DNA of 64,000 bases. It comes from Halanaerobium kushneri. GTDB taxonomy: Bacteria > Bacillota > Halanaerobiia > Halanaerobiales > Halanaerobiaceae. The notes under the pieces were generated by a model, which was given only the letters and a program-made list of their open reading frames with translations, had not been told where the DNA came from and made no database searches. Shown piece after piece: positions 14,462-55,315 of this stretch. Both the position numbers and the translations under genes were made by a program. Within the stretch, counting starts at the first letter, position 1. The number at the start of each line of letters is the position of its first letter. Location of the stretch: NCBI RefSeq assembly GCF_900156285.1, contig NZ_FTNC01000016.1, positions 1 through 64,000 of the forward strand, in the 5' to 3' direction.

Positions 14462-16509
14462 TGGCTTTAAATAAAAGTAAGAGAAAAAATAATGAAGTTA
14501 AAATTGCTCTGGCTGGCAACCCCAATTCTGGAAAGACCACTATGTTTAACGAATTGACAGGGTCCAGACAGCATGTTGGTAACTGGCCAGGGGTAACAGT
14601 TGAAAAGAAAATGGGTAGAGCTTCCTATCAGAATTACTCACTGGAGGTTATTGATCTACCGGGTACATATTCTCTGGGAGCATATTCGGATGATGAGGTA
14701 GTGGCAAGAGATTTTTTGACTACAGGAGATTATGATGTCGTTTTGAATATTATTAACTCCTCTAATCTGGATCGAAATTTATATTTTACGGTTCAGCTTT
14801 TAGAAATGGGAGTAGATTTAATTGCCGTTTTAAATATGGCTGACGAAGCTGAGAAGAAGGGAATTAAAATCAACAAAAATAAACTTGCTAAGATGCTTGG
14901 CACATCGGTTGTAGAAACAGTTGCCAGTAGAGGTAGAGGGATTGATAAGCTTCTAAAAGAAACTGTTCAAAATCGAGATTTATCTGAGGCAGCTTTAAAA
15001 ATTGATTACGGCAGAGAGATAGAGGATTTAATTTCTGAGGTTCTTTCAATGCTTAGAGAATTTAATTTTACCGATCAGATTAATCAGCGCTGGGCGGCAG
15101 TTAAATTAATTGAACATGATCCAGAAGCTGTAAAACTATTGGAGAGAGAAGTAGGAGCTTCTAAAGCCAAAAAGATTAAGAGCTTAATTGCAGGGAGAGA
15201 ACTTAAAGCTGAAGATGATTTTGATAATATTATAATTGATAAAAAATATGAATTCATAAATCAAGTAATTGCTGAGAGTGTTAGCAGACCTGCATTTGAT
15301 CAGGAACCAGAGAATATTTCTGATAAAATTGATAAAGTTATAACAAATAAATATCTTGGTATACCAATTTTCATGGTAGTGATGTGGAGCATTTTCAAAT
15401 TCACTTTTACTCTGGGTGATCCACTTATTGGTTATATTGAAACTTTTTTTGAAGCTGCAGGTGGCTGGATTGGTAGTCTGCTGGCAGGTGCAGGAGTTTC
15501 TCCACTAATTTCTTCTTTTATTACTGATGGAATTATCGGTGGTGTAGGTTCTGTACTGGTTTTTATACCAAATATTTTTCTTTTATTCCTGGCAATAGGT
15601 ATTTTAGAGGACAGCGGTTATATGTCAAGAGCTGCTTATGTTATGGATAAGGTAATGAGCAAACTAGGTCTGCATGGAAAGTCATTTATCCCGATGATTG
15701 TTGGTTTCGGCTGTAATGTACCCGGGGTAATGGCAACCAGAACCTTAGACAGCAAGCGAGATCGGATTATTTCTATTTTGATTAATCCTCTGATGTCCTG
15801 TTCAGCCAGATTACCTGTTTATGTAGTCTTTGCCGGCGCTTTGTTCCCCAATCATGCAGGCACAGTTGTTTTTTCCCTTTATGCACTGGGGATTGTAATG
15901 GCTGTAATAATGGCGGGAGTATTTAATAAAATATTATTTAAAGGTGAGAGATCACATTTTGTTATGGAATTACCGCCTTATAGAATTCCGACTTTAAAAG
16001 GTGTATTTATTCATATGTGGGAAAAAGTAGGTGCTTTTATCAAAAAAGCAGGAACAATTATTTTCTCAGTTGTAGTTTTAATCTGGGTCCTTGCTAATTT
16101 ACCACTTGGAGTAGAATATGCTTCTGCAGAAAGTCTAATTGGTCAGTTTGGTCAGCTGATAGCTCCACTTTTCAAACCATTAGGATTTGGCAGCTGGCAG
16201 GCGGCATCTTCACTGGTTTTTGGTATCTTAGCTAAGGAGGTAGTTGTTGGTACACTTGGTGTAGTTTACGCAGCCGGAGAAGGTGGTTTGAGAGCAGCTT
16301 TAACAACTAATTTCAGCCCTCTGGCAGCATATTCATTCTTAACCATGGTACTTTTATATACTCCCTGTATAGCAACCCTGGGAGCAATTAAATCAGAAAC
16401 TCAGAGCTGGAAATGGACACTGGTTACAGCTTCTTATCTTTTTGTTTTAGCCTGGATAGTAGCCTTTGTAGTTTATCAGGGTGGAATGCTAATTGGTTTA
16501 GGAGCTTAA
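14461..16509 (+). CDS. feoB: Ferrous iron transporter FeoB
   Basis: Inner-membrane Fe(II) importer with an N-terminal G domain. G1 is GNPNSGKTT (residues 19-27), G3 is DLPGTYSL, and G4 is NMAD. The membrane core follows (about residues 295-680), with the Gate motif GCNVPGVMATRTL and SCSARLPVYVVF, and IFAKEVVVGTL-like and YTPCIATLGAIK segments near the end. The length of 682 aa is normal. Expected to be induced under iron limitation through the upstream regulator and operators. Confidence 0.96.
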   Translation: MALNKSKRKNNEVKIALAGNPNSGKTTMFNELTGSRQHVGNWPGVTVEKKMGRASYQNYSLEVIDLPGTYSLGAYSDDEVVARDFLTTGDYDVVLNIINSSNLDRNLYFTVQLLEMGVDLIAVLNMADEAEKKGIKINKNKLAKMLGTSVVETVASRGRGIDKLLKETVQNRDLSEAALKIDYGREIEDLISEVLSMLREFNFTDQINQRWAAVKLIEHDPEAVKLLEREVGASKAKKIKSLIAGRELKAEDDFDNIIIDKKYEFINQVIAESVSRPAFDQEPENISDKIDKVITNKYLGIPIFMVVMWSIFKFTFTLGDPLIGYIETFFEAAGGWIGSLLAGAGVSPLISSFITDGIIGGVGSVLVFIPNIFLLFLAIGILEDSGYMSRAAYVMDKVMSKLGLHGKSFIPMIVGFGCNVPGVMATRTLDSKRDRIISILINPLMSCSARLPVYVVFAGALFPNHAGTVVFSLYALGIVMAVIMAGVFNKILFKGERSHFVMELPPYRIPTLKGVFIHMWEKVGAFIKKAGTIIFSVVVLIWVLANLPLGVEYASAESLIGQFGQLIAPLFKPLGFGSWQAASSLVFGILAKEVVVGTLGVVYAAGEGGLRAALTTNFSPLAAYSFLTMVLLYTPCIATLGAIKSETQSWKWTLVTASYLFVLAWIVAFVVYQGGMLIGLGA

Positions 16510-16553
16510 ATAAATTAAACTGAATTTAAGCAATTTAGCTTAAGGAGGTCATT

Positions 16554-16727
16554 ATGGAGTATTTATTTTTAGGAGTTTTAGGTGTTGGTAGTCTTTATTA
16601 TATAGGAAAGAAAATTTATGGTGGAATTAAAGGAACAGATAGCCCCTGTGCTGGCTGTAGTGATCAGAGCTGTCCGGTAGCAGGTGGTAAAGAATATAAC
16701 TTCGATGATATTGTGATTGATGATTAA
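16554..16727 (+). CDS. FeoB-associated Cys-rich membrane protein
   Basis: A 57-aa protein. It has one N-terminal membrane helix (YLFLGVLGVGSLYYIG), then a Lys/Gly linker and a cysteine cluster PCAGCSDQSCP (C32, C35, C40), then an acidic tail. This matches the small Cys-rich proteins found after feoB in clostridia and relatives, whose role is unproven. ATG behind AAGGAGG, 44 bp after feoB. Translation was read directly from the sequence. Confidence 0.85.
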   Translation: MEYLFLGVLGVGSLYYIGKKIYGGIKGTDSPCAGCSDQSCPVAGGKEYNFDDIVIDD

Positions 16728-16762
16728 TTTTTTTAGCTTTAAATCTGAGTACTTTAATCAAG

Positions 16763-16800
16763 AAACGCAGACCCGAACTTTAGCTTCAGGGTCTGCGTTT
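16763..16800. terminator. Bidirectional terminator between feo operon and cstA
   Basis: AAACGCAGACCC (16763-16774) pairs perfectly with GGGTCTGCGTTT (16789-16800). It lies between convergent genes and has modest T/A tracts on both sides, so it may serve both strands. Confidence 0.75.
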
Positions 16801-16836
16801 ATAGTATTCTCAGTAATTTCTAAGCAGCAGTTATTG

Positions 16837-18276
16837 TTATACCGCCTGTTTTTGAACCATTATTTCTTCTTCAAATTGAGTGCTGTTAATCTTTTTGATA
16901 TAAATACCCATAGTTACAACTGCAATTATAATTCCGGCTGTAACTGAGAAACTGTAAGGCAGCTGGAATCCCTCTGGTGCATAGAGAATATAGGTTGAAG
17001 AAACACCGGTCATAAAGAAAGCTGGAATAGAAGCAATCCAGTGGTTTTTACCATGTTTGGCAAGCCACATTGCTCCGGCCCATAATACAACCATAGCTAC
17101 TGTCTGATTTGACCAGGCAAAATAGCGCCATAAAGCATCAAAGTTGATCTGAGATAAGGCTCCCCCGACAATAAAAATTGGGATAGCAAGAATCAATCTA
17201 TTTTTAACAGATTTCTGTTCCAGTCCAAAAATATCAGATAGGGTTAATCGCACACTTCTAAAAGCAGTATCTCCAGAAGTAATTGGAGCTGCAATTACTC
17301 CAAGCATTGCCAATACTCCACCGACAACTCCCATCATTGTACCTGTAATTTCGTGAACAACTCCAGCCGGGCCACCAAGAGAAGCCAGAGCTTCATTTAA
17401 GCCGCCAGTTCCTTGGAAGAAAGTCATAGCTGCAGCTGCCCAGATTAAAGCAACAATACCCTCAGCAACCATAGCACCATAGAAAATTTTACGACCTTCT
17501 TTTTCATTTGTAGTACAGCGAGCCATAATTGGTGACTGGGTTGAATGGAAGCCACTGATTGCACCACAGGCAATGGTTACAAATAATAAGGGCCACATAG
17601 GTAATTCACCCGGATGCAGATTATTTAAAGCAATATTTGGAATGTTGTAATCTCCAAAGATCAAACCTCCCCCGACTCCCAGAGCCATAATTAAAAGTGC
17701 CAGTCCAAAGATAGGATATAATTTACCAATAATCTTGTCTACCGGTAGGAAAGTTGCAATAAAGTAGTAGCCAAGAATGATTATCAACCAGACATTAACT
17801 CCCATAAAACCCGGTGTTAGATTTGATAAAAGTAAAGCTGGTCCGGTCATGAAAACTGTTCCAACTAAAACCAGAAGTACAATACTAAAGACTCTCATGA
17901 TCTGTCTGATTGTGTCCCCAAGATTTTCCCCGATAATCTCAGAAATTGAAGCTCCTCCCGAGCGAATAGAAAGCATTCCAGAAAGATAATCGTGGACACC
18001 ACCAGCAAAAATCGTACCAAATACTATCCAGAGAAAAGCAGTTGGTCCCCATAAGGCACCGGCAATTGCTCCAAAAATTGGTCCCAGGCCGGCTATGTTT
18101 AAAAACTGAATTAAAAATGCCTTTTTCCAGTCCATTGCCATGTAGTCCACACCATCTTCCATTGTCACAGCAGGTGTCTCCCGTTTTTCTTCGGAACCAA
18201 AAATTCTGTCAACAATTTTCCCGTATGTAAAATACCCAATAATTAAAACAGCTAAAGAAATAAGAAAAGATGCCAT
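16837..18276 (-). CDS. cstA: CstA-family carrier (carbon starvation protein, likely pyruvate/peptide uptake)
   Basis: Polytopic inner-membrane protein with about a dozen hydrophobic segments. The N-terminus carries the CstA hallmark DGVDYMAMDWKKAFLIQFLNIAGLGPIFGAIAGALWG (first part, residues 42-78), then GGVHDYLSGMLSIRSGG and SGFHSTQSPIMARC. At 479 aa it is shorter than E. coli CstA/BtsT (about 700 aa), a short form seen in anaerobic Firmicutes. Known CstA/BtsT members import pyruvate or peptides. The upstream LytS/LytR pair parallels BtsSR-btsT, which supports pyruvate, but the substrate is inference. Confidence 0.9.
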   Translation of the reverse strand: MASFLISLAVLIIGYFTYGKIVDRIFGSEEKRETPAVTMEDGVDYMAMDWKKAFLIQFLNIAGLGPIFGAIAGALWGPTAFLWIVFGTIFAGGVHDYLSGMLSIRSGGASISEIIGENLGDTIRQIMRVFSIVLLVLVGTVFMTGPALLLSNLTPGFMGVNVWLIIILGYYFIATFLPVDKIIGKLYPIFGLALLIMALGVGGGLIFGDYNIPNIALNNLHPGELPMWPLLFVTIACGAISGFHSTQSPIMARCTTNEKEGRKIFYGAMVAEGIVALIWAAAAMTFFQGTGGLNEALASLGGPAGVVHEITGTMMGVVGGVLAMLGVIAAPITSGDTAFRSVRLTLSDIFGLEQKSVKNRLILAIPIFIVGGALSQINFDALWRYFAWSNQTVAMVVLWAGAMWLAKHGKNHWIASIPAFFMTGVSSTYILYAPEGFQLPYSFSVTAGIIIAVVTMGIYIKKINSTQFEEEIMVQKQAV

Positions 18277-18334
18277 AAAAATATAACCCCCTATAAGTTT
18301 TTTTAATACATTCTAATTATATCTGGATCCGGGG

Positions 18335-18364
18335 ATTATAAAAGCTTTTTTAACTGAATTGCAA
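18335..18364 (-). promoter_or_regulatory. Candidate cstA promoter
   Basis: Read on the minus strand: TTGCAA (18364-18359), 18-bp spacer, TATAAT (18340-18335), about 60 bp before the cstA start. This would allow cstA to be transcribed separately from lytSR. Confidence 0.5.
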
Positions 18365-18384
18365 AAATATTATACTCAATTACA

Positions 18385-19152
18385 TTATTTAAGATTTAAG
18401 AGTTTATTAATTTGATCAACTTTAGAACGGCTAACCGGTATTTTGTGTTCTGAGTAATCTTCCATTAAGACCTGATATTTACCTTTAAACCAGGGAATAA
18501 CAGCCTTAATGTATTTTAAATTAACAATATAGCTTTTGTGAATTCGAAAAAATTGCTCAGGCAGCATCCGCTCTAACTCCTTTAGTTGAAAGCCAGTCAT
18601 ATAAGAATTTTTGTGGCAGTGAGCCCAAACTTTTTTCTCTCTGGTAGAAAAATAATAGATATCTTTAAAATCAAGCATTAAATAATAATCTTTTTCCATA
18701 ACAGCAATTTTGTTTAAAGATTTGTCTCTTTTGTCGGGTCTTATGCTGGCAAATAAGTTTTCCAGCTGTTGATTTATGTTATTATTTTGTTTAATTTCTT
18801 TTTTTATTTTTATCAGGCTTTCTTTAAAACGCTGATCACTGATTGGTTTTAAAAGATAATCGACTGCTGCCAGCTGAAAGGCTTCTACGGCATATTCATC
18901 ATAAGCGGTGGTAAAAACAATATAAGGAGAATTCTTTTTCTCTTTTAGTATTCTGGCTATTTCCATACCACTGATACCCGGAATTTTGATATCTAAAAAA
19001 AGCAGATCTACCTGATTTTTATTTAAAATTTCTAGAGCCTTTTTACCATCCCCTGCTTCAAATAGGACCTTAAAATCTTTTTCTTGATTTATTAAGTATT
19101 TTATTTCTTCTCTAGCTGGTTTTTCATCTTCTACAATCATTGTTTTGATCAT
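18385..19152 (-). CDS. LytTR-family response regulator
   Basis: Receiver domain (phospho-acceptor D54 in LLFLDIKIPGISG; KP in LLKPISDQRF) followed by a C-terminal LytTR DNA-binding domain (about 145-255; FRIHKSYIVNLKYIKAVIPW, KIPVSRSKVDQINKLL). ATG at 19152 overlaps the last base of the lytS stop, so the pair is translationally coupled. A TTG three bases upstream is an alternative. It likely activates the adjacent cstA gene. Confidence 0.92.
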   Translation of the reverse strand: MIKTMIVEDEKPAREEIKYLINQEKDFKVLFEAGDGKKALEILNKNQVDLLFLDIKIPGISGMEIARILKEKKNSPYIVFTTAYDEYAVEAFQLAAVDYLLKPISDQRFKESLIKIKKEIKQNNNINQQLENLFASIRPDKRDKSLNKIAVMEKDYYLMLDFKDIYYFSTREKKVWAHCHKNSYMTGFQLKELERMLPEQFFRIHKSYIVNLKYIKAVIPWFKGKYQVLMEDYSEHKIPVSRSKVDQINKLLNLK

Positions 19153-20858
19153 CAATTGGCTTTTCTCCTCTCAAAAAGAAATTCTTTTGGGATTTTAATT
19201 ATATTTTTTGTACCTGATTTGGAGTCTGATTCGATTTTAAAATTAGCTCTGCTGCCGTAAATGGAGTTCAGTCTTTCTATGACATTGTTCAGGCCAATTC
19301 GGTCATTTTGGCCTGCAAAAATAGCTTTTATCTTTTCTTTTTCGATTCCACTTCCACTGTCAGATACTGTGATAATTAAATTTTGATCATTTTCCACAGC
19401 CGAAATAATTATTTTCCCACCTTTTTCTTGGGGATGGATTCCGTGTTTAATAGAGTTTTCAATTAGAGGCTGAATGATAAAAGGAGGAATTACAGTGTCC
19501 ATTAATTCAGCACTGATTTTCCATTCAACTGCAAGTCTTTTATCAAGTCTGGCTTTTTCGATACTCAAATAGTCACGGCAGAATTCAATTTCTTCTGCCA
19601 GAGTTATCTGGTGAACATCTCTTTTTAAAGTTCTTCTAAAAATACCGGCCAGTTTGATTAAAAGTTCTCGGGCCTGGTCAGGTTTTGTTCTACAGGAAGC
19701 AGCAATTGCATTTAGAGAATTAAAAAGAAAATGCGGGTTGATCTGAGCCTGCAGGGCTTTTAATTCTGCTTCACTTTTTAATTCTGCCTGTTTGGAAAGT
19801 TTGGCCAGTTTAATCTGTGTTGCCAGCAGATCGGCGATTCCTTCAGCCAGTTTAATATCTAAAACAGTAATTTTTTCTTTGCTGCGGTACAGTTTAAGCA
19901 GACCGTAAACACTATCCTTTATTTTGAGAGGGGTTATAACAGCATCTGTTAGCTGACAGTTATTATGATTACAATTAATATCTTTTTTATGATCGACAAG
20001 AATTGTCTTTTTTTCCTGCATTGCTCTGTGGCTGGCTTCAGTTTTTATTTTTTCTCCCCTACGGTGATGGTCTGCACCGAGGCCGGAGAAAGCCAGAATT
20101 TTTTCGGTGTCTGTAATTGCAACTGCATCTACCTGACTTTCCTTTTTAATCATAGAAATTATCTTGGCTGCAGAGTCTGAGTCAAGACCATTCTGCAGTA
20201 AAGGCAGTGAACGGTCAGCAATAGAGAGAACTTTTTCTGCCTGTAAAGCTCTTATTTTTTGGTTATCTTCTTTAACTTTGTTTAAAATACTAATAAAAAT
20301 TGAGATTCCCAGACTGTTGCTTAAAATCATGGGAATAGCAATAATACCTACCAGTTCCAGAGCCAGATTTAAGGGGCGGCTGAAAATTATAACAATTATC
20401 ATCTCAATAGTTAGAGCAGCAGCACCAATTAAAAAACCATTTTTAAAATTTATTTCATTTTTTTTATATTTTTTGTGAAATAGCCCTCCAATTAAGCCAG
20501 TAGTGGTAGTACCAATTGCACAGGCGAGAGCAGTAAACCCTCCCAGAGAAAATCGGTGCAGTCCTGCTATTAAACCGGCGCTCATTCCTACTAATGGTCC
20601 ACCTAGAAGACCGGCCATTAAAGCACCGATGGCTCTAATATTTGCATAAGCATCCATAATAATAATACCAAGAAAGGTACCCAAAATGGAAAGCACGGCA
20701 AAAAAGATAGTTAAAAATATTTTTTCATAACGATTAAAATTCTCTGAAAAAACGTGTTTAACACTGCTGAGACGGCTTAAAATATAGGCAAAAGTTACTA
20801 TTACACTCATACTTTTAAATAAAGTAAATAATAATTCCAGGATTCTGTTGTTATACAT
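19152..20858 (-). CDS. LytS-type sensor histidine kinase
   Basis: N-terminal 5TM-LytS sensor (five to six hydrophobic segments, about residues 1-190, with AIGALMAGLLGGPLVGMSAG and GLIAGLHRFSLGG), then a GAF domain (about 215-350), a His_kinase segment with H376 in NPHFLFNSLNA, and an HATPase domain (NSIKHGIHP; DSGSGI). Length 568 aa. BtsS and YpdA of this family sense pyruvate; the same is inferred here from linkage to cstA. ATG behind AAAGGAG. Confidence 0.93.
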   Translation of the reverse strand: MYNNRILELLFTLFKSMSVIVTFAYILSRLSSVKHVFSENFNRYEKIFLTIFFAVLSILGTFLGIIIMDAYANIRAIGALMAGLLGGPLVGMSAGLIAGLHRFSLGGFTALACAIGTTTTGLIGGLFHKKYKKNEINFKNGFLIGAAALTIEMIIVIIFSRPLNLALELVGIIAIPMILSNSLGISIFISILNKVKEDNQKIRALQAEKVLSIADRSLPLLQNGLDSDSAAKIISMIKKESQVDAVAITDTEKILAFSGLGADHHRRGEKIKTEASHRAMQEKKTILVDHKKDINCNHNNCQLTDAVITPLKIKDSVYGLLKLYRSKEKITVLDIKLAEGIADLLATQIKLAKLSKQAELKSEAELKALQAQINPHFLFNSLNAIAASCRTKPDQARELLIKLAGIFRRTLKRDVHQITLAEEIEFCRDYLSIEKARLDKRLAVEWKISAELMDTVIPPFIIQPLIENSIKHGIHPQEKGGKIIISAVENDQNLIITVSDSGSGIEKEKIKAIFAGQNDRIGLNNVIERLNSIYGSRANFKIESDSKSGTKNIIKIPKEFLFERRKAN

Positions 20859-20917
20859 ACTGCACTCCTTTAAAAAGACTGATATTTTTATAAATAAATT
20901 AATAATTATCTAAGTAA

Positions 20918-20946
20918 ATAATACTACAATAAATTTACTTATTCAA
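20918..20946 (-). promoter_or_regulatory. Candidate lytSR promoter
   Basis: Minus strand TTGAAT (20946-20941), 17-bp spacer, TATTAT (20923-20918), about 60 bp before the lytS start. Confidence 0.5.
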
Positions 20947-21033
20947 ATAGTGGAAAAAATTGCTGGTTTTTGATAAAGGTTTGTAACTAAATTTGACTAT
21001 AAGCAGCTTTTAAATGCCTGAAATTATAAGCGA

Positions 21034-22044: not shown

Positions 22045-23886
22045 TTGTTAAAAATAGTTATAGTTATAAATGATGTAATAGAAAAAAATAAAGTCAAATC
22101 ACATCTTAATCGTGCTAAAAGAAAGTTCACCGGGATAGAATTTGAACTGGTAAAGGAGTTTGATGATAACCGTCAGGCTGTAAATTTTCTTTATCAGAAT
22201 CCTGATATTGATATTTTGATTATTGAAAATGCAATAGGAGAAATTTTTTCTGGAATTGATTTAATCACTCTTGCAGAGAGTGAATTTCCAAATACTGGCG
22301 TAATTCTTTTAACTGGACCCGGTGAAGAACTAAATTTAGAGCAGTGTAGTGTTAATAATTTGCATTCCATAATCAAAAAAAGAGAAGATTACAGGATTTT
22401 TAAAGAAAATCTACTGCTGGCTCTTTTAAAACAGCGTCTAAAAAATAAAGAGCAGAGAAAAGAAAAAGAAAGATTAAATGATTACCGAACAATTATTGAT
22501 CATACACATGATGCTATTTTTTTACTTGAAGTTGACTGTGATGAAAATATCTATTATAAAAGAATTAATGGTACTCATCAGCGCTTAACCGCTATGAGTA
22601 ATGAAGAAATTAAAGGGAAAAAAGCGGAAGAAATTTTTAAGGAAGAGGTAGCTCAGAAACTGGAAGCAAATTACCGGCGATGTTTGCGCAAAAAAAGCCG
22701 GATAAATTATACAGAGAAAATCAAGTTTCCGGCCGGTAAAAAATTCTGGCAAACCACTTTATATCCAGTTGTAAGAAACGGAAGAGTAGAAGAAATAGTG
22801 GGTGCTTCTTATGATATTACTGATATGGAAGCTAAGCAGCAGAGATTGGATTATATGAAAAGACATGACAGGCTGACCGGTCTTTATAACAAAGAATATT
22901 TTAATCAGTTATTTGAAGAATTAAATAAAAATGAAAAAGATGATTTAGCCTTAATCATGCTCAATGTTGAGAACTTTCATTTAATAAATAAGATTTTTAG
23001 CTGTCAAAAGGGAGATCAGATTCTAAAAGAAATTGCTTCCATCCTGGCTCAAATTTCGGATAGTAATAAAATAGCAGCTCATCTATGTGCAGATCATTTT
23101 GCAGTCATTTTGAAAAATCAGAGTTTGCTTGAAATAGAAGACACTCTTAATTTTATCAAAAAAGAAGTGGCAAAACTTAATATTAAAGGGATTTATATTG
23201 ATGTTGATGCAGTATTTCTTGAAAAAACAAATGATAAAATTAGTGCCCGAGATTTTTTTAATGATGGAGTTGCAAAAATTAATTTAAAGAGATATAAAAC
23301 AAGTAAGGAAAGTAATTTTTACTGTTCTTTAGTAAATTATATAAAGAAGGATAATTATAAAAAACTGAGACAGAATAATCAACTCATAGAATTAACTCGA
23401 GAAACTGCAGATTTTTTTGAATTAAGTAAACAGGAAAAGAAAAAAATGATGCTTTTAGCCGGCCATCATGATCTTGGCAAACTGGCTCTGGACAAGAATA
23501 TTCTTAAAAAAGGTGAAAAATTTACGGCTAAAGAATGGCATGAGTATCAAAAGCACGTTCTGATTTCTGCAAATTTTGTTAGTTACTATCATGATCTGGC
23601 TGAAATAACAAATTTAGTATTAGCCCATCATGAACATTTTGATGGTACAGGCTGGCCTAAAGGTTTAAAAGGGGAAGAAATACCTTATTTAAGCAGGCTG
23701 TTTGCAGTAATTAATTTTTATAGCAATTTAAATTCAAATCTATATTTCCCTTTACTTCAAAATAAGTATTATTTTGGAGCTTTAGAAGACAGAGAAATTA
23801 TAAAAGAGTTAAAATATTACCAGGGAAAACTTTTTGATCCCCAAATTGTGGATAAATTTATTTTATTCCTTAAAGACCTGGATTGA
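22045..23886 (+). CDS. Degenerate receiver-PAS-degenerate GGDEF-HD-GYP protein
   Basis: 613 aa. Residues 1-120 resemble a receiver but the phospho-acceptor region reads LIIENAIGEIF, with no Asp. A PAS domain follows (about 150-270). A GGDEF-fold domain (about 275-410) has CADHFAVIL instead of GGDEF, so no cyclase activity is expected. The C-terminal HD-GYP domain (about 430-613) has HHDLGK (H475-D476), HHEHFDGTGWP (H528-H529, D533-P538) and GEEIP, suggesting c-di-GMP phosphodiesterase. However, the usual Asp near the end of the motif is Asn in AVINFYSNL, so activity is uncertain. TTG start behind GGGGAG. Confidence 0.85.
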   Translation: MLKIVIVINDVIEKNKVKSHLNRAKRKFTGIEFELVKEFDDNRQAVNFLYQNPDIDILIIENAIGEIFSGIDLITLAESEFPNTGVILLTGPGEELNLEQCSVNNLHSIIKKREDYRIFKENLLLALLKQRLKNKEQRKEKERLNDYRTIIDHTHDAIFLLEVDCDENIYYKRINGTHQRLTAMSNEEIKGKKAEEIFKEEVAQKLEANYRRCLRKKSRINYTEKIKFPAGKKFWQTTLYPVVRNGRVEEIVGASYDITDMEAKQQRLDYMKRHDRLTGLYNKEYFNQLFEELNKNEKDDLALIMLNVENFHLINKIFSCQKGDQILKEIASILAQISDSNKIAAHLCADHFAVILKNQSLLEIEDTLNFIKKEVAKLNIKGIYIDVDAVFLEKTNDKISARDFFNDGVAKINLKRYKTSKESNFYCSLVNYIKKDNYKKLRQNNQLIELTRETADFFELSKQEKKKMMLLAGHHDLGKLALDKNILKKGEKFTAKEWHEYQKHVLISANFVSYYHDLAEITNLVLAHHEHFDGTGWPKGLKGEEIPYLSRLFAVINFYSNLNSNLYFPLLQNKYYFGALEDREIIKELKYYQGKLFDPQIVDKFILFLKDLD

Positions 23887-24029
23887 GTGGATAATTACAG
23901 CTCAGACGACAGTTATCCACAAACTACCCACAAAACAGGTGTTTTATCCACAGTTGTTAACAATTAATCAACAAAAATTGTGGATTAAATACCGCAGTTA
24001 CCAACAACTTATCCACAAATTGTGGATAT
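23886..24029. promoter_or_regulatory. DnaA-box cluster
   Basis: Seven DnaA-box-like 9-mers in 144 bp. Three are perfect TTATCCACA (23913-23921, 23944-23952, 24009-24017). Three have one mismatch on the opposite strand (23886-23894, 23979-23987, 24021-24029). One has two mismatches (23924-23932). The last two form the inverted pair ATCCACAA-A-TTGTGGAT. A very AT-rich stretch follows (24030-24100). This may be a DnaA titration/regulatory cluster, or less likely a replication origin; dnaA and dnaN are not nearby. Confidence 0.8.
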
Positions 24030-24118
24030 TAAAAATGATTATTATTTATAATAAGCTTAAATAAATTTTATTCAGAAGCAAATCAGATTTAAAATATAAA
24101 ATTTATAAGGAGGTTAAA

Positions 24119-25168
24119 ATGAGAAAATTTTCGCGAATTAAATCAAGTGAGATTGGTCATACTCCTGGAACTTTGCATGGAATTGAAGAAGAAATCAATG
24201 CCGAAATAGAAATAATTCAGTTTAATGAAGAAACAGTAAAAAGAAAAGCTACTGAAAAATTCACACTTTCTTTAATTGAGTCAGGTTTTATAAACTGGAT
24301 CAATATTACTGGAATTCATGATGTTGAACTTGTTAAAGAAGTAGGAGAAGCGATTGATCTGCATCCACTAACATTAGAGGATATTACAAACACCAGACAG
24401 CGTCCAAAAAAGGAAGAATTTGATAATTATATTATTACAATTCTCGATATGTTAAGCTATCAGGGAGAATATATCCAGTCAGAACAGGTAAGTTTAATTT
24501 TGCTGGAAAATACAATTATCACTTTTCAGGAAGCTCATGGTGATGATTTTAATCCTGTGCGAGTTAGAATAGAAGAAAATAAAGGCCAGATTAGAAAAAA
24601 AGGTGCAGACTATTTATATTATGCTTTACTTGATGCAATAGTAGATAATTATTTTAATATTTTAGAAAGAAATGAAGAGGTATTGGAAGATTTAGATGAC
24701 CTGGTAGTTGCAGCTAAAACTGGCCCTGATACTTTAGAGATAATTCAGAACTTAAAACAGGAAATTGTTTTTCTCCGTAAAACTATCTGGCCTTTAAACA
24801 CGATTTTTGGTAATCTTTACCGGGTTGAATCACCTTTATTGTCTAAAGAAACCGACTATTATTTGCGTGATGTGTATGATCATATTGGTCAGTTGATGGA
24901 TGAAATTGATGTGGCGCGTGATATGCTTTCCAGTATGCTGGATATTTATCTTTCTAATAAAAGTAACAAAATGAATGAGGTCATGCAGTTTTTAACCGTA
25001 ATTTCAACAATTTTTATTCCCCTAACGTTTATTGCCGGAGTCTATGGAATGAATTTTAAATTTATGCCGGAGCTTGATTACAAAATTGCCTATCCTGCGG
25101 TAATGTTCTTAATGTTAATTATTGCAGTGGTGCAGTTAATTTATTTTAAGAGGAAAAAATGGCTTTAG
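24119..25168 (+). CDS. corA: Magnesium/cobalt transporter CorA
   Basis: Pentameric Mg2+ channel family. It has a large cytoplasmic N-terminal domain rich in acidic helices (NLKQEIVFLRKTIWPL, ML.IYLSNKSNKMNEVMQFLTV), then two C-terminal membrane helices with the signature YGMNF (G310-M311-N312) between them and a basic KRKKW tail. Length 349 aa is typical. ATG behind AAGGAGG. It overlaps the next gene by 10 bp, so the two are co-translated. The DnaA-box cluster forms its upstream region. Confidence 0.94.
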   Translation: MRKFSRIKSSEIGHTPGTLHGIEEEINAEIEIIQFNEETVKRKATEKFTLSLIESGFINWINITGIHDVELVKEVGEAIDLHPLTLEDITNTRQRPKKEEFDNYIITILDMLSYQGEYIQSEQVSLILLENTIITFQEAHGDDFNPVRVRIEENKGQIRKKGADYLYYALLDAIVDNYFNILERNEEVLEDLDDLVVAAKTGPDTLEIIQNLKQEIVFLRKTIWPLNTIFGNLYRVESPLLSKETDYYLRDVYDHIGQLMDEIDVARDMLSSMLDIYLSNKSNKMNEVMQFLTVISTIFIPLTFIAGVYGMNFKFMPELDYKIAYPAVMFLMLIIAVVQLIYFKRKKWL

Positions 25169-28100
25169 ATCTACTAGCAATTATTTCCGCGGCAGGAACA
25201 GGGGCAGTAACCGGCTATTTAACAAACAATCTGGCTTTAAAAATGATTTTCAAAGAGTATGGCCCACTTGGGGGAGTGGTAATTAAGACTAAGGATGAGT
25301 TTATTGACAGTATCTCCGAGCTTGTAGAGAGAGATCTGATTAATCATCATACTCTTGAGGAAGAATTTTCGCGTCCGGAATTTAAAGAAAATTTTGCTCG
25401 AAGTTTAAGTGATTTTCTAAATATCTATCTAGATCAGAGAACTGAATCCAGTCTGTTAAGTGATATTCCAGCCTGGAAAGAAAACTACGAACTTTTTGCT
25501 TCACTGCTTGGCAGTAGTTCAGTTGAGATTATGCAGAAGAGTACTGAGAAATTAACTGAGGAGAAACTGGAAAAAATAATTGCTCAACCTGAGCTGCAGG
25601 CTTTACTGAAGCAAATATATCTTAAGATTATAAAAGAGGCAGAGAACAAAAACAGTCTAAAAAATATTAGTTCCGGGCTCTATCAGGAACTTAAAAATAA
25701 AAGAATAGATCAGCTTTTAAGTAAAGAAATTCAGCTTAAGTTAAAAGATTTTATCAAAGAAATAATTAGTTATTTTGCTGAAAATTATCAGAGTCTGGAT
25801 CAGGAAAATAAAGCTGAATTTAAAGAAAAAATATTTGATCTTTTTAATCTGGAGTCTCTGGTCAGGGACTTAATGACAGAATTAAAAGAAATTAAAGTTG
25901 GTGATATATTTAAGAAAAAAGAAGAACTGGAGAAGTTGAGGCAGAACAAACTTCTGCAGCAGACTCTGAGTGAGATCCTCTTGAATTTTAAAATTGAAAT
26001 TGATAATTCTGATTTAAAGATTGCAGATTTATTAACTGAAGAACTGGAAGACTCTCTGCTCACAGATCTAGCTGCTGTTATTAGTAAATCAGAAGATGAT
26101 ATTTTAGCACTGCTGACTGCTGAGGAAGAAGAGCTAAATAGTCTCATTTTAGAGGCTGTAGAAGCAGAAATTGAGGCAAGCAGCGGCTTTAAAGCTATGA
26201 GTCGCCAGGGTATTTACAGTAAGTATCAGGAGAACATAGAAGATTATGGTTTTCCTATTGCACATTTAAAGAGTTATATTTCAGAAAAGATTAATTCTGA
26301 TAACCGACAGCTGGCAGAAACAGCTCTCGCGAAAATTAAAGACTATAAATTAAAGCAGCTGCTTAGAGGAATTGAATTTAAGGATATTTCGCTAAAATTA
26401 GAAAATATTATCTGGGATTTTTATCAGGTGAATCAGGATAAAAAAGTTATTGATCTTTTTTCAGAAGAACTTTTTCAGCAGCAGGTGATTGAAGACAAAT
26501 TAACTGATCTTATTTTTTCTTTAATCAAAAAACTGGGAAGTTCTCCGGATTCAGTTGATATGCTGCTTGACTATCTGGCTGGATTTGAAATGCAGGATTT
26601 GATTAGCGAAGAGAATTTAATTAAAAAAGTGGAAGCTAACTCGGGACTGATTTATCAGCAGTTACGGCAGAATGATTTTGTAACTAAGGAGTTAAGTAAG
26701 TATCTAAATGATGAATTTTTTGCTCTGCTTAATTCGGAATTAAATCTTGGCCAGGATGGGTTTAAACAGGAAGCGGCAAATTACTTTAAAGAGGTGGAGA
26801 AAAATTTTGCCGACAGAGAATTAAAAGATATTTATCAATTATTTAAAGGAGAGGATACTGTTGTTAAGTTAACTGATTCAATTACAACTTTCTTTTATAA
26901 TAATTTACCTGAGCTGATAGAAGGTCGAGTAGCTCAGGCAGCAGCAGCGAATCTACATCAGCTATCTGATCAGGAAGTTCAGCAGGCGATTGAAGATTTT
27001 ATGGGGAAAGAACTAAAGCCAATTACTTATTTAGGTGCACTTTTAGGTGCTGGAGCCGGCTTGCTATTTTCTTTTAGTGGGGCGGAGGCGGCGATTTTTA
27101 ATTCTGCTCCCATCTGGCTTAATTACTTGACTGCTGCAGTTTTGTATGGGGGTGTGGGCTGGCTGACAAATGTACTTGCTATCTGGATGATTTTTCATCC
27201 ATATGAGGAAAAGCGAATTGGCACTATTCAGCTTCCATTTACTCCTGGAGTTGTGGCTAAAAACCGGAGTCGCTTTGCTGATTCTATGGGAAAATTTGTG
27301 GAAAAAGAACTGCTTAAAGCCGATTCGGCAGCAGAGATAATTGAAAATAATCGCAGTCAGATTAAAGAAACTATACTTGGATATTTTGAGCAGAACGATT
27401 ATCAGCATTTTTTCGATTTAATTAAAGATAATAATGAGTTTCTGGCAGCTGAAGTATTTGCCAAAATTGATGAGATAATTTTAAATCTTGATTCAGATGA
27501 TTTAACAAGACTTAAGGGTCCTTTTAATCAAAAACTAAACCAATTTTTGGATAAAAAGCTCTCTCAAATTAATTTTGTAGAAATGAGTAAAGATTATTTT
27601 GCAGATAACGAATTAGATTTTAGCGGGCTGCAGGACAGGCTTATTTCAAAGCTTGATTTAAGTAAGATAATTAAAGCTGCAGGCGGCAAATTTGACTTTG
27701 AGCTTAATTCTGCTCAATTAAAAAATCTGCTGCAGAATAAGGAATTGTATCCTTTTATGAAATTTATTATTCCCGAACTTCTAAATACAGATCTCAATTA
27801 TGATTTTCAGGCCAGATTGCGACAGATTTTGGAAACTAATTCTGAATATTTTCTGGACCAGGGGATTGATTTAATCGACAGCCAGCAGCAAAAAATAGCT
27901 CAGCTGATTAATTTCAAAAAAGATGAGATTATTGAGGCAGAAAAAGAGAAAAAAGGTGGACTTTTAAAAAACACTCTGATTTCGGGAGCTATTTATATGG
28001 CGGATCTGGATGAATTTGTCGATTCTGTAACAGTAAGGGTTTTTAAGCGATTAAGAGAGGAATATTTTGTAGAAAAAAGATCCAGGTTAAAAGAACTTTA

Positions 28101-28908
28101 TTTCAAATTACTGCAAATAATAGATGAGAGTGGGCTTTTAAGTAATGAAAAAATAGCATTAAGTCAGCTCTTAACCAATTTATCTGCCTCCCCCCGGGGA
28201 TCCCAGCTAATAACAGAGGTTCTTTATCTGAGTGAAGCCGAAATTAATGAGCTGCTCGAAAAATGTTTGAAGGCTGAACAAGAGGGGTTAATGAACTTTA
28301 AGCTGGAAATAAAGGCAGCTAATCTTGAATATTTAGTTAATCAGAACTTAAAGCTGGAGCAAAAATTACAGCTGCTGTTGAATTTAAAAAGTCTGCTTAC
28401 AGCAGAAGTAATTGAAGACGAGATAGCTCAGCTTTTAGCTGAGACTGATCTTCAGGAAGTTAATAAAGAACTCAGAGAACTAATTAATAGCTTAGATTTG
28501 ATTTCTTTAGACTTAGAAAATGATCAGCAGTTAAAAGAAATATTAAATAAGCTTTCAGAATTAATTAATAATCCGGAGTTAAAGCAGGTGATTTTAACTC
28601 AGACAGCGTCAGATATTAGTGAGGGAGCAGTTATTCTGGAAGAAAAGCTGGACAGAGAAAGCTTGAAATACCTACTGGAATTATTTATAGAAAGTGGTGT
28701 TGATAGCTTTAAGGTTAATTCCGAATCTCTGCTCAGAAGTTTGGAGCTGAAGAAACTAACAGCCGAAGAAGTAAGAAAAATGAATCCGGCAGAGATTGAG
28801 GAAGTTTTTGATAGTTTTGCCGGTAGATATTTTACTCATCTTAAACAGTATGGCTGGTTTGGTGGTATTTTTGGTCTGCTGCAGCTTTTAATTAGAAGTA
28901 TAGTTTAA
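25159..28908 (+). CDS. Very large double DUF445-family membrane protein
   Basis: 1249 aa, about three times the usual DUF445 length. Two membrane modules carry the same motif: GYLTNNLALKMIF (about residues 19-31) and GWLTNVLAIWMIF (about 667-679), the latter followed by TIQLPFTPGVVAKNRSRFADSMGKF, typical of DUF445. Between and after them are long acidic, Leu/Glu/Lys-rich helical stretches. A final hydrophobic segment (about 1230-1249) ends the protein. It looks like an internal duplication of a whole DUF445 protein. Function unknown. Co-translated with corA and 23 bp from the metal importer. Confidence 0.8.
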   Translation: MALDLLAIISAAGTGAVTGYLTNNLALKMIFKEYGPLGGVVIKTKDEFIDSISELVERDLINHHTLEEEFSRPEFKENFARSLSDFLNIYLDQRTESSLLSDIPAWKENYELFASLLGSSSVEIMQKSTEKLTEEKLEKIIAQPELQALLKQIYLKIIKEAENKNSLKNISSGLYQELKNKRIDQLLSKEIQLKLKDFIKEIISYFAENYQSLDQENKAEFKEKIFDLFNLESLVRDLMTELKEIKVGDIFKKKEELEKLRQNKLLQQTLSEILLNFKIEIDNSDLKIADLLTEELEDSLLTDLAAVISKSEDDILALLTAEEEELNSLILEAVEAEIEASSGFKAMSRQGIYSKYQENIEDYGFPIAHLKSYISEKINSDNRQLAETALAKIKDYKLKQLLRGIEFKDISLKLENIIWDFYQVNQDKKVIDLFSEELFQQQVIEDKLTDLIFSLIKKLGSSPDSVDMLLDYLAGFEMQDLISEENLIKKVEANSGLIYQQLRQNDFVTKELSKYLNDEFFALLNSELNLGQDGFKQEAANYFKEVEKNFADRELKDIYQLFKGEDTVVKLTDSITTFFYNNLPELIEGRVAQAAAANLHQLSDQEVQQAIEDFMGKELKPITYLGALLGAGAGLLFSFSGAEAAIFNSAPIWLNYLTAAVLYGGVGWLTNVLAIWMIFHPYEEKRIGTIQLPFTPGVVAKNRSRFADSMGKFVEKELLKADSAAEIIENNRSQIKETILGYFEQNDYQHFFDLIKDNNEFLAAEVFAKIDEIILNLDSDDLTRLKGPFNQKLNQFLDKKLSQINFVEMSKDYFADNELDFSGLQDRLISKLDLSKIIKAAGGKFDFELNSAQLKNLLQNKELYPFMKFIIPELLNTDLNYDFQARLRQILETNSEYFLDQGIDLIDSQQQKIAQLINFKKDEIIEAEKEKKGGLLKNTLISGAIYMADLDEFVDSVTVRVFKRLREEYFVEKRSRLKELYFKLLQIIDESGLLSNEKIALSQLLTNLSASPRGSQLITEVLYLSEAEINELLEKCLKAEQEGLMNFKLEIKAANLEYLVNQNLKLEQKLQLLLNLKSLLTAEVIEDEIAQLLAETDLQEVNKELRELINSLDLISLDLENDQQLKEILNKLSELINNPELKQVILTQTASDISEGAVILEEKLDRESLKYLLELFIESGVDSFKVNSESLLRSLELKKLTAEEVRKMNPAEIEEVFDSFAGRYFTHLKQYGWFGGIFGLLQLLIRSIV

Positions 28909-51938: not shown

Positions 51939-52592
51939 ATGGAACAGGTGTATGAAAAAAAGCGTGAACAACTTCTTGATGATCTCAGTGATATGAGTGA
52001 AGTTGCAGAGGAAATGCTGCAGAATGTTATTAAAGCAATGGACGATTTGAATGTAGAAAAAGCTCACGAAATAATTGAACGAGATGATGTTTTAGATAAC
52101 TACCTAATCACAATAGAAGAAGAAGTTTCGCGCTTGTTGACTCTGGATCAACCCCTGGCTTCCGATACCTGGTTTAGTATTGCTATGATTAAAATTGCAA
52201 ATGATTTAGAAAGAATTGGGGATCAGGCAACTAATATAGCAGAAATCTTACTTGAATTAAAACATGATGGAATTATGAAACCACTTGTTATGATTCCTGA
52301 ACTGGCTGATATTGTAACTGATATGCTGGATGTAGTTTTAGAATCATTTTCTACCAGGAATTCTGACCTGGCAGAGGCTGCCTGCAGAATGGACGAAAAA
52401 GCAGATAATCTTTATGAAGATATTTATCATAAAGCTATTAAAATGATAAGTCAAAAAGAAGATAAAGATGAAATCAAACAGATAGTTCAACACATCAATT
52501 TAGCTAAGTCGCTGGAGCGTGTAGGTGATCATGCAACTAATATTGGTGAGGAGACTATCTTTATTGTTACAGGTAAAAGAGTTAAGTATTAA
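51939..52592 (+). CDS. phoU: PhoU-type phosphate regulator
   Basis: 217 aa, two three-helix PhoU repeats, each with the acidic metal-binding signature: KIANDLERIGDQATNIAE and HINLAKSLERVGDHATNIGEE. PhoU proteins inhibit phosphate-responsive kinases and Pst uptake. No pst or phoR gene is adjacent, so it stands alone. The ATG at 51939 is preferred over the GTG at 51930, which overlaps the AGAGGAGAG ribosome site. Confidence 0.93.
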   Translation: MEQVYEKKREQLLDDLSDMSEVAEEMLQNVIKAMDDLNVEKAHEIIERDDVLDNYLITIEEEVSRLLTLDQPLASDTWFSIAMIKIANDLERIGDQATNIAEILLELKHDGIMKPLVMIPELADIVTDMLDVVLESFSTRNSDLAEAACRMDEKADNLYEDIYHKAIKMISQKEDKDEIKQIVQHINLAKSLERVGDHATNIGEETIFIVTGKRVKY

Positions 52593-52669
52593 ATATATTA
52601 TTTATTATATTGAAGTATAGTTTAGTATAGAGGATTAGAACAAAATTGCTTGTATAAATTGAATAAACT

Positions 52670-52699
52670 AAAACGGCCTGTTTTTACAGGCCGTTTTTT
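52670..52699. terminator. Bidirectional terminator between phoU and the P1 peptidase gene
   Basis: AAAACGGCCTG, a six-base loop, then CAGGCCGTTTTTT. Flanking A and T tracts make it suitable for both converging genes. Confidence 0.9.
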
Positions 52700-52730
52700 C
52701 TAAATAGAGGTTAAACATAAAGGTTTAATT

Positions 52731-53639
52731 TTATCGGGCAGAATTTAAAATAGCCTCTTTAACAACTTCAGCAGCTATTATTCCAATTTGATTGGTATCT
52801 GCTTTTATTTGATTAGAAGCCAGAGTAAAAATGCTGTCTCCATCCAAAAGAGTGTGAACAGGATAAATAGTACGGCTTAAACCACTCTGTGCCATCATTG
52901 AAATCCGGTTTGCTTCCGCTTTGTTTAAAGTAGCATTAGTTGCTATTACTACCAGTGTTGTATTTTCTCGTAAAAATCCAAGATTGATTTCTGGTTGGTT
53001 AATAATCATTTTTTCGGTATCGATATAATTTCCATCACTATCTCTGGCTCCAGCAATTATTTTTGAAATTTCGGGGTTTTTGATATCACCAAAAGCGTTG
53101 ACAACTGACATTGCAGCTACAACAAGATCTCCGGTCTTTTTAGCTGCATGCCCCAGTGCTGTTTTGCTGGCGTTATTCATTCCATTTATTTTACCACAGG
53201 TTGCGCCAGTTGCTGCCCCTATACTTTCATTTTTCTGTCTGGAACTATCAGCACTAAGACAGGCCTGATAAGCCATTTCTGAATCTGGATATTTATTGCT
53301 TTTATATTCCAAATCATAAATTACTGCTGCAGGAACTATAGGCACAACTCCACCGCCTGTCTGGAAACCAGTATTTTTTTCTCTTAAATATTTCATAACT
53401 CCACCAGCTGCATCAAGACCATAGGCACTGCCACCACTTAAAAAAACAGCATTAGCTTTATCAACTGCAGCCCGGCTGTCAGTTAAAGCAATTTCCCTGC
53501 TTCCTGGTGCACCCCCACGAACTTCCGCTCCAATAGTAAAATCTCCTTCAGCCAGGATTACGCTGCAGCCAGTTCCAGCCTTTTGATTATCAGCATGACC
53601 AATTTTTATACCCTCAATAGCTGTTAAGTCATTATTCAT
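52731..53639 (-). CDS. P1 family (DmpA/NylC-like) self-processing aminopeptidase
   Basis: 302 aa Ntn-type hydrolase. LTAIEGIKIGHADNQKAGTGCSVIL and EVRGGAPGSRE open the protein, with VFLSGGSAYGLDAAGGVMKYL typical of peptidase family S58/P1. The segment LRENTTLVVIATNATLNK holds the expected autocleavage point before the nucleophilic residue, giving large and small chains. Known members act on D- or beta-amino acid amides and cyclic oligomers; the substrate here is unknown. ATG behind GGGAGGG, divergent from the 5'-nucleotidase gene. Confidence 0.9.
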   Translation of the reverse strand: MNNDLTAIEGIKIGHADNQKAGTGCSVILAEGDFTIGAEVRGGAPGSREIALTDSRAAVDKANAVFLSGGSAYGLDAAGGVMKYLREKNTGFQTGGGVVPIVPAAVIYDLEYKSNKYPDSEMAYQACLSADSSRQKNESIGAATGATCGKINGMNNASKTALGHAAKKTGDLVVAAMSVVNAFGDIKNPEISKIIAGARDSDGNYIDTEKMIINQPEINLGFLRENTTLVVIATNATLNKAEANRISMMAQSGLSRTIYPVHTLLDGDSIFTLASNQIKADTNQIGIIAAEVVKEAILNSAR

Positions 53640-53800
53640 TTTTCGCCCTCCCTGTGATGTTTCGTTATGTCAAAAATCTTTTCTTAAAAAAATTATAACA
53701 TTTTTAGATGATTTTTTTTAGTTTGGCAGGAAAATTAATTCTTATATCAAATATTATAAATAGAAGTAATAATTTTCAAAAAAATATGGAGGTGGAATTT

Positions 53801-55315
53801 GTGAAGTTCAAAAAACTATCTATTACCTTTTTGACTCTGATTTTAGTTATGACTCTATCTTTTACTATTCTGGCGGAAGAGGTAGACATAAGGATTTATC
53901 ATGTAAATGATGTTCACTCCAGAGTAGAAGATGATGATTATGCTGGCAGTATAGGTTATGCTAAAATGGCAACCTTGATTAAGAAAGCCAGACGAGAGAT
54001 GGGAAATGTGATGTTTCTAGATGCTGGTGATAGTTTCCACGGTCAAACTATTGCCAACATAAATGATGGAGAAGCTATTAGTAATATCCTTGATTTGATG
54101 AATGTAGATGCTCTAACTCTGGGTAATCATGATTTTAACTATGGTCAGGCCCGATTAGAAGAATTGGCTAATATGAGCAACTTTCCTTTTTTAGCTGCTA
54201 ATCTGGTTCGAGAAGATGGAGAAGAGATTCCCTATAAAAAAGATTATATTATAAAAGAATATGATGGAGTTAAAGTAGGAGTTTTTGGTCTGGTAACTCC
54301 AGAGACAGCTTATAAAACACACCCCAAAAATGTTGAAGGACTTGTATTTGAAAACCCAATTACTACTGCTAATGCTGTAGTAAATGAGTTAAGAGGTAAA
54401 GTTGATATCATTGTTGGATTAACTCACCTGGGAATTAGTGAAGGAAGTAAATATACCAGTAAGATGGTAGCAGAAGAAGTACCAGGGATTGATTTAATAG
54501 TTGACGGCCACAGTCATAATGTTTTAAAAGAAGGTATGATGGTTAATGATACAATGATTGTTATGGCTGGAGAATATTCTAAATTCTTAGGTTATGTAGA
54601 TTTAACTGTAGATAATGGAGAACTCACAGATATTAAAGCCAATTTAATTACTAGAGAAGAGACTGCAGATGTAGAAAAAGACTTTATTATTTCTACAGTT
54701 GTTGACCGTATTAATAGAGCCAATGCTGCTATAACTTCTCAAACAGTAGGAGTTACCAGGGTTGAACTTAATGGTGAACGAGGAAATGTTCGGACAGGTG
54801 AAACCAATCTTGGTAATTTAATTACTGATGCTATGAGAGCAAAATTAGATACTGATGTAGCAATCACCAATGGTGGTGGAATTAGAGCCTCTATTGACAG
54901 AGGTGAAATTACTCAGGGAGAAGTTATAACCGTTCTGCCCTTTGGTAACACAGCTATGGCGATTGAAATTAGTGGAGCTAAACTAAGAGCCGCCCTGGAA
55001 CATGCAGTATCTGAGTATCCTGCTACTGAAGGACTTTTCCCCCAGGTATCCGGGATTAAATTTACATTTAATGGTGATGCGGAGCCAGGTAATAGAGTCC
55101 AGCAGGTCTGGGTTGAGGGAGAAGAATTGGAACAGGATAAGATGTATACAGTTGCTACCAACGATTTTATGAAAGCGGGTGGAGATGGTTATACAATGTT
55201 TACTGATGCTCCAATCGTAAAAGAAGCTGGAGGCTTAGAAGAAATAGTAATGGAATATATTGAAGCTAACTCTCCTGTAGCTCCTGTAACAGAAGGAAGA
55301 ATAGTGGCTGAATAA
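53801..55315 (+). CDS. Secreted 5'-nucleotidase/2',3'-cyclic phosphodiesterase (UshA-like)
   Basis: 504 aa. A signal peptide (SITFLTLILVMTLSFTILA) leads to a calcineurin-type metallophosphatase domain with VNDVHSR, LDAGDSFHGQ, LGNHDFNYG and VDGHSHN, followed by the 5'-nucleotidase C-terminal domain (TNLGNLITDAMR; NGGGIRASI; DGYTMF). It would release nucleosides in the periplasm, which could feed the BMP-type importer at 60.5 kb. GTG at 53801 behind GGAGGTGG is preferred over the longer frame from 53708. Confidence 0.92.
   Translation: MKFKKLSITFLTLILVMTLSFTILAEEVDIRIYHVNDVHSRVEDDDYAGSIGYAKMATLIKKARREMGNVMFLDAGDSFHGQTIANINDGEAISNILDLMNVDALTLGNHDFNYGQARLEELANMSNFPFLAANLVREDGEEIPYKKDYIIKEYDGVKVGVFGLVTPETAYKTHPKNVEGLVFENPITTANAVVNELRGKVDIIVGLTHLGISEGSKYTSKMVAEEVPGIDLIVDGHSHNVLKEGMMVNDTMIVMAGEYSKFLGYVDLTVDNGELTDIKANLITREETADVEKDFIISTVVDRINRANAAITSQTVGVTRVELNGERGNVRTGETNLGNLITDAMRAKLDTDVAITNGGGIRASIDRGEITQGEVITVLPFGNTAMAIEISGAKLRAALEHAVSEYPATEGLFPQVSGIKFTFNGDAEPGNRVQQVWVEGEELEQDKMYTVATNDFMKAGGDGYTMFTDAPIVKEAGGLEEIVMEYIEANSPVAPVTEGRIVAE

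Follow-up and report, generated by a model that had tools for sequence, protein, structure and literature searches.

The question raised by this locus is why a dense group of DnaA boxes should lie in a short non-coding stretch between an HD-GYP gene and corA, in a window of 64,000 nucleotides from Halanaerobium kushneri. Extra-origin chromosomal control of DnaA is known mainly from Escherichia coli and Bacillus subtilis. A sequence-only reading had described three perfect boxes and four near matches within 144 bp, followed by about 70 bp of AT-rich sequence, and had judged oriC less likely than a site for titration or regulation. The composition of the cluster, its conservation, its position on the chromosome and the possible roles of the element are considered below.

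The DnaA-box cluster and its architecture

Positions 23847-24029 of the window contain four perfect TTATCCACA boxes and three boxes with one mismatch. The perfect boxes anticipated by the sequence-only reading are those on the plus strand, at 23913-23921 and 23944-23952, both invariant in 14/14 genomes of the family, and at 24009-24017, which is perfect in the window genome and nearly invariant elsewhere. Its tally omitted a fourth, at 23847-23855 on the minus strand, which lies just upstream, inside the HD-GYP gene at its 3' end, is outside the conserved core and is missing wherever that gene is missing. The one-mismatch boxes are all on the minus strand: TTATCCACT at 23886-23894, found in some species only, TAATCCACA at 23979-23987, with an invariant TGTGGA, and ATATCCACA at 24021-24029, 3 bp from the 24009 box. 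Thus three near matches hold at one mismatch, and weaker sites matching at 6-7 of the nine positions raise the count above the four proposed. When these weak sites are included, about nine ordered candidate DnaA sites fall in a non-coding stretch of about 140 bases. The inverted pair ATCCACAA-A-TTGTGGAT was also located, at 24011-24027.

The density of the cluster is far from what chance would give, as the real window had a best cluster score of 11 and none of its 400 first-order Markov resamplings exceeded 4, and the Poisson expectation for finding four of the 47 genome-wide perfect boxes inside 171 bp is near 1e-7. These box counts come from pattern searches over the draft genome (3.22 Mb, 53 contigs), in which the cluster is the densest group; besides it, more than two boxes occur together only in the dnaA region, that is oriC, on contig 40. 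Equally dense chance clusters were therefore not a general feature of the genome, oriC being the sole comparable place. A repeat with ACAAAGTTATCCACATTCC, found at the starts of contigs C7, C15, C20 and C50, accounts for several of the 47 perfect boxes. In addition, G000:C13:278-339 is almost identical to G007:C1:1555427-1555490, and both contain two inverted perfect boxes plus a TTATCAACA box. This box pair, found on C13 and at 1555 kb in G007, was considered as a second cluster of the same kind and rejected because a transposase gene (419 aa in G007) adjoins it; it is apparently an insertion element carrying DnaA boxes.

The weak sites are not scattered among the strong ones. Four degenerate boxes, all on the plus strand, sit 10-11 bp from stronger boxes, leaving gaps of 1-2 bp between strong and weak boxes: CTACCCACA at 23924-23932 lies 11 bp downstream of the 23913 box, TTGTTAACA at 23954-23962 lies 10 bp past the 23944 box, TAATCAACA at 23965-23973 follows the 23954 box by 11 bp, and TTACCAACA at 23998-24006 precedes the perfect box at 24009 by 11 bp. 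The terminal ACA of these four boxes has been retained by all genomes or almost all, and is invariant in the 23924 and 23965 boxes. A direct repeat of 25 nt, each copy of which is a tandem double box, occurs three times with spacings of 41 and 44 bp, and copies two and three are each followed by an inverted TTGTGGAT box. The DnaA of E. coli favours two boxes separated by 2-3 bp, one example being a 7/9 site joined to a perfect site at purH, and the 23998/24009 pair has this same arrangement (PMC11317965).

The element also has a palindrome, AAAACA-GG-TGTTTT (AAAACAGGTGTTTT, 23932-23945, plus strand), which is the sole exact AAAACANNTGTTTT in the genome; 13 of the 14 genomes keep it, so that it is nearly invariant within the family. 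It could be a site for an accessory protein. The 3' end of the element is an AT-rich block, TTAAAAATGATTATTATTT, at 24030-24048 (plus strand). The AT-rich tract that had been noticed here is present, with 10 G/C among the 80 bases at 24030-24109, but it is conserved only to about 24048, its first 18 bp or so. A promoter-like match, TGGATA-18-TATAAT (24023-24052, plus strand, 10/12), overlaps the last inverted box with its -35 part; similar matches are found in some relatives, not in all.

Conservation and gene neighbourhood

The conserved core spans 23911-24048 on the plus strand (positions 2-139 of model R1, a model built from sequence alone). It is present as a single copy in all the Halanaerobiaceae genomes searched (14/14, three genera), each giving one strong match with E values from 1e-23 to 1e-35. 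Relatives with the element signature include H. saccharolyticum, H. salsuginis, H. polyolivorans, H. congolense and other Halanaerobium. Identity of the element is 71-91%, next to four-fold synonymous sites that are nearly saturated; for the seven genomes compared with the window it was 71-87%, versus 26-48% at such sites in the adjoining gene for a CDF transporter. Column conservation was highest in the boxes (0.94), followed by the linkers (0.80), the upstream flank (0.65) and the downstream flank (0.57), and the array keeps a near-fixed spacing and a fixed orientation. The conservation in close relatives that had been proposed as a check is therefore strong, and these values point to clear purifying selection on the element across Halanaerobiaceae.

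Outside the family the core model gave matches with E values of 3e-7 or weaker, a few weak ones lying elsewhere. The best matches adjoin dnaA/rpmH and are therefore oriC, and the idea of a counterpart in the order's other families was rejected. Upstream of DUF445 homologues from beyond the family no box cluster was found. Another family of the order has small groups of DnaA boxes away from dnaA, at about 1524-1614 of G026 C101 and about 1291-1557 of G036 C122, and these are possible independent clusters. Literature searches, which covered papers available without subscription, returned no description of this element.

The order of genes at the locus is CDF transporter, HD-GYP (where present), element, corA (where present), a DUF445 protein of about 1250 aa and then usually the znu genes. 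In the window corA (24119-25168, plus strand) is the first gene downstream, followed by the DUF445 gene (25159-28908, plus strand), which lies downstream of the element in every one of the 14 genomes. The element is always found between the CDF transporter gene and the DUF445 gene. It is kept in the four genomes in which corA is missing at the locus (G006, G010, G011 and G013) and in the three in which the HD-GYP gene is missing (G007, G012 and G013), and is thus conserved independently of both of the neighbours by which it had been placed. Since it persists without either gene, a part in the control of corA or of HD-GYP was rejected as a full account. The large DUF445 protein itself diverges fast, with about 30-70% identity within the family.

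Relation to the replication origin

Boxes in a cluster with an AT-rich tract after them are what might be expected of a second or alternative origin, but the window genome has its oriC at dnaA on another contig (C40:17534-19640), bipartite around that gene. The unwinding site has been described as boxes, a GC-rich stretch and a DnaA-trio (PMC5295017), and oriC of C40 matches this description, with canonical boxes-GCCCC-TACTACTATTACTACTAG at about 19597-19640; the sequence between dnaA and dnaN contains ...TTATCCACTTATTCACAGCCCCTACTACTATTACTACTAG.... This textbook oriC, with its DnaA-trios (TACTACTATTACTACTAG) in the dnaA-dnaN gap, is conserved in G006 and G007. The element shares with oriC the TTATCCACA boxes and the weaker boxes placed near strong ones, whereas only oriC flanks dnaA, has the boxes/GC-stretch/DnaA-trio site and sits, in the relatives, at the skew switch. 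When the element was inspected for the parts of an unwinding site, no GC stretch and no clear trio run were seen, and its AT-rich tract is not conserved beyond 24048. Sampled GC skew in G006 and G007 changes sign at dnaA and is unchanged across the element, one 100 kb sample of G006 being anomalous, and the skew of the window shows no reversal at 24 kb. Local skew dips are present at 16000-21000 and 52000-54000 of the window, where genes lie on the opposite strand. On the skew, the anatomy of the genome's own oriC and the lack of clear trios, a second origin was rejected as highly improbable, in agreement with the preference expressed in the sequence-only reading, which had suggested locating dnaA and the skew minimum.

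The distance between the element and oriC is known from the two complete relatives, both with dnaA at the coordinate origin, the window genome being a draft of 53 contigs. In G007 (2.309 Mb) the plus strand carries the element at 218.6 kb, 219 kb (9.5%) to the right of oriC, and in G006 (2.613 Mb) it lies on the minus strand 153 kb before the end, that is 153 kb (5.9%) to the left of oriC. In both it points away from oriC, and an inversion around the origin could account for the two placements.

Possible functions of the element

We consider that the element is probably, with a likelihood of roughly 0.55, an ordered cluster of DnaA boxes outside oriC, like those of B. subtilis, which would act on initiation by sequestering DnaA. 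DnaA is predicted to bind the perfect boxes and to spread from there to the weak ones, which lie one helical turn off. As the site is near oriC it would be duplicated early in each round, and would then take up DnaA or change its nucleotide state; the DnaA held there would be withheld from oriC and re-initiation would be limited. Besides the density, conservation and box spacing described above, this reading is supported by the fact that G006 and G007 have very few multi-box sites, of which the element is one; the other pair outside oriC is the one beside the transposase gene. Moreover YabA is present in the genome, which therefore has a regulator of the Bacillus type. Against it can be counted that a pure sponge needs no fixed spacing, and that the constant place directly upstream of the corA/DUF445 operon would fit a transcriptional role too. 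The rigid spacing of the boxes speaks for a defined nucleoprotein complex more than for a simple sponge.

Six DnaA-box clusters (DBCs) are known in B. subtilis (Okumura et al. 2012, as reviewed in PMC5295017 and PMC13220808); their joint deletion leads to early initiation, and a withholding of DnaA from oriC has been proposed for them. The six strongest DnaA regions outside oriC in that species have 4-11 sites per 300 bp (PMC4447404). The element resembles the DBCs in having multiple boxes away from oriC, a comparable number of sites (about nine) and a YabA-containing genome of the Gram-positive type. It differs from them in being one locus and not six, in having none of the B. subtilis neighbour genes given in Table 1 of PMC4447404, and in its conserved, repeated double-box architecture with a genome-unique palindrome. 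With datA of E. coli it shares a box cluster that lies close to oriC and whose organization and relative position are conserved, but datA is about 1 kb long and needs IHF, whereas the element is shorter (about 140 bases), and no relation in sequence is claimed. DARS1 and DARS2 are likewise short ordered arrays of closely spaced boxes with possible accessory sites; the DARS have a core of three boxes, with IHF and Fis sites in DARS2, whereas the element has about nine boxes. It is conceivable, and in our opinion rather unlikely, that the element is a dedicated DnaA-remodelling locus of a Gram-positive-type lineage, a functional equivalent of datA or DARS, in which DnaA on three phased double-box modules and an accessory protein on AAAACANNTGTTTT would change the ATP/ADP state of DnaA. 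According to a 2026 review (PMC13220808), B. subtilis lacks both datA and DARS, and the regulators of the nucleotide balance of DnaA are an open question there.

A tentative alternative, deserving serious attention, is that the element serves as control region for the (corA)-DUF445-znuABC operon, at which DnaA would repress or activate transcription and so tie the uptake of metals to replication stress or the replication cycle. The same operon is always immediately downstream in the same orientation, and in G006 and G010 the end of the element directly abuts the ribosome-binding site of DUF445. The 10/12 promoter match overlaps the last inverted box and has counterparts in several relatives, but it is absent from some genomes. 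Transcription of sda in B. subtilis is activated through upstream DnaA boxes (PMC4447404), which gives a precedent for such control; at least nine sites are nevertheless many for a simple operator, and the first gene downstream varies between corA and DUF445 while the element is unchanged. This role is compatible with the sequestering of DnaA, and the two may coexist. It is much less probable that the site belongs to another regulator, or is a metal-sensing RNA leader, with the DnaA boxes incidental, for instance a Fur-family operator or a Mg2+ riboswitch ahead of corA. The neighbouring genes are indeed metal transporters, AATGATTATYATT resembles the central part of a Fur box, and matches to the Fur-like pattern are about double those to its reversed control. 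But conservation peaks in the DnaA boxes, the 3' block is less palindromic in several relatives, and many of the Fur-like matches inspected are intragenic, with none clearly ahead of a metal-transport gene, so that a Fur-type operator in the 3' block is a weak candidate. The riboswitch leader was rejected, as the Rfam search gave no family match at the gathering score.

In this salt-loving bacterium the element probably holds DnaA and so helps to time the start of chromosome copying, or it puts the adjacent metal-transport genes under the control of DnaA. Being single, short, of fixed architecture and independent of its nearest genes, it offers a simple test case of whether ordered DnaA clusters time initiation or tie metal transport to replication.
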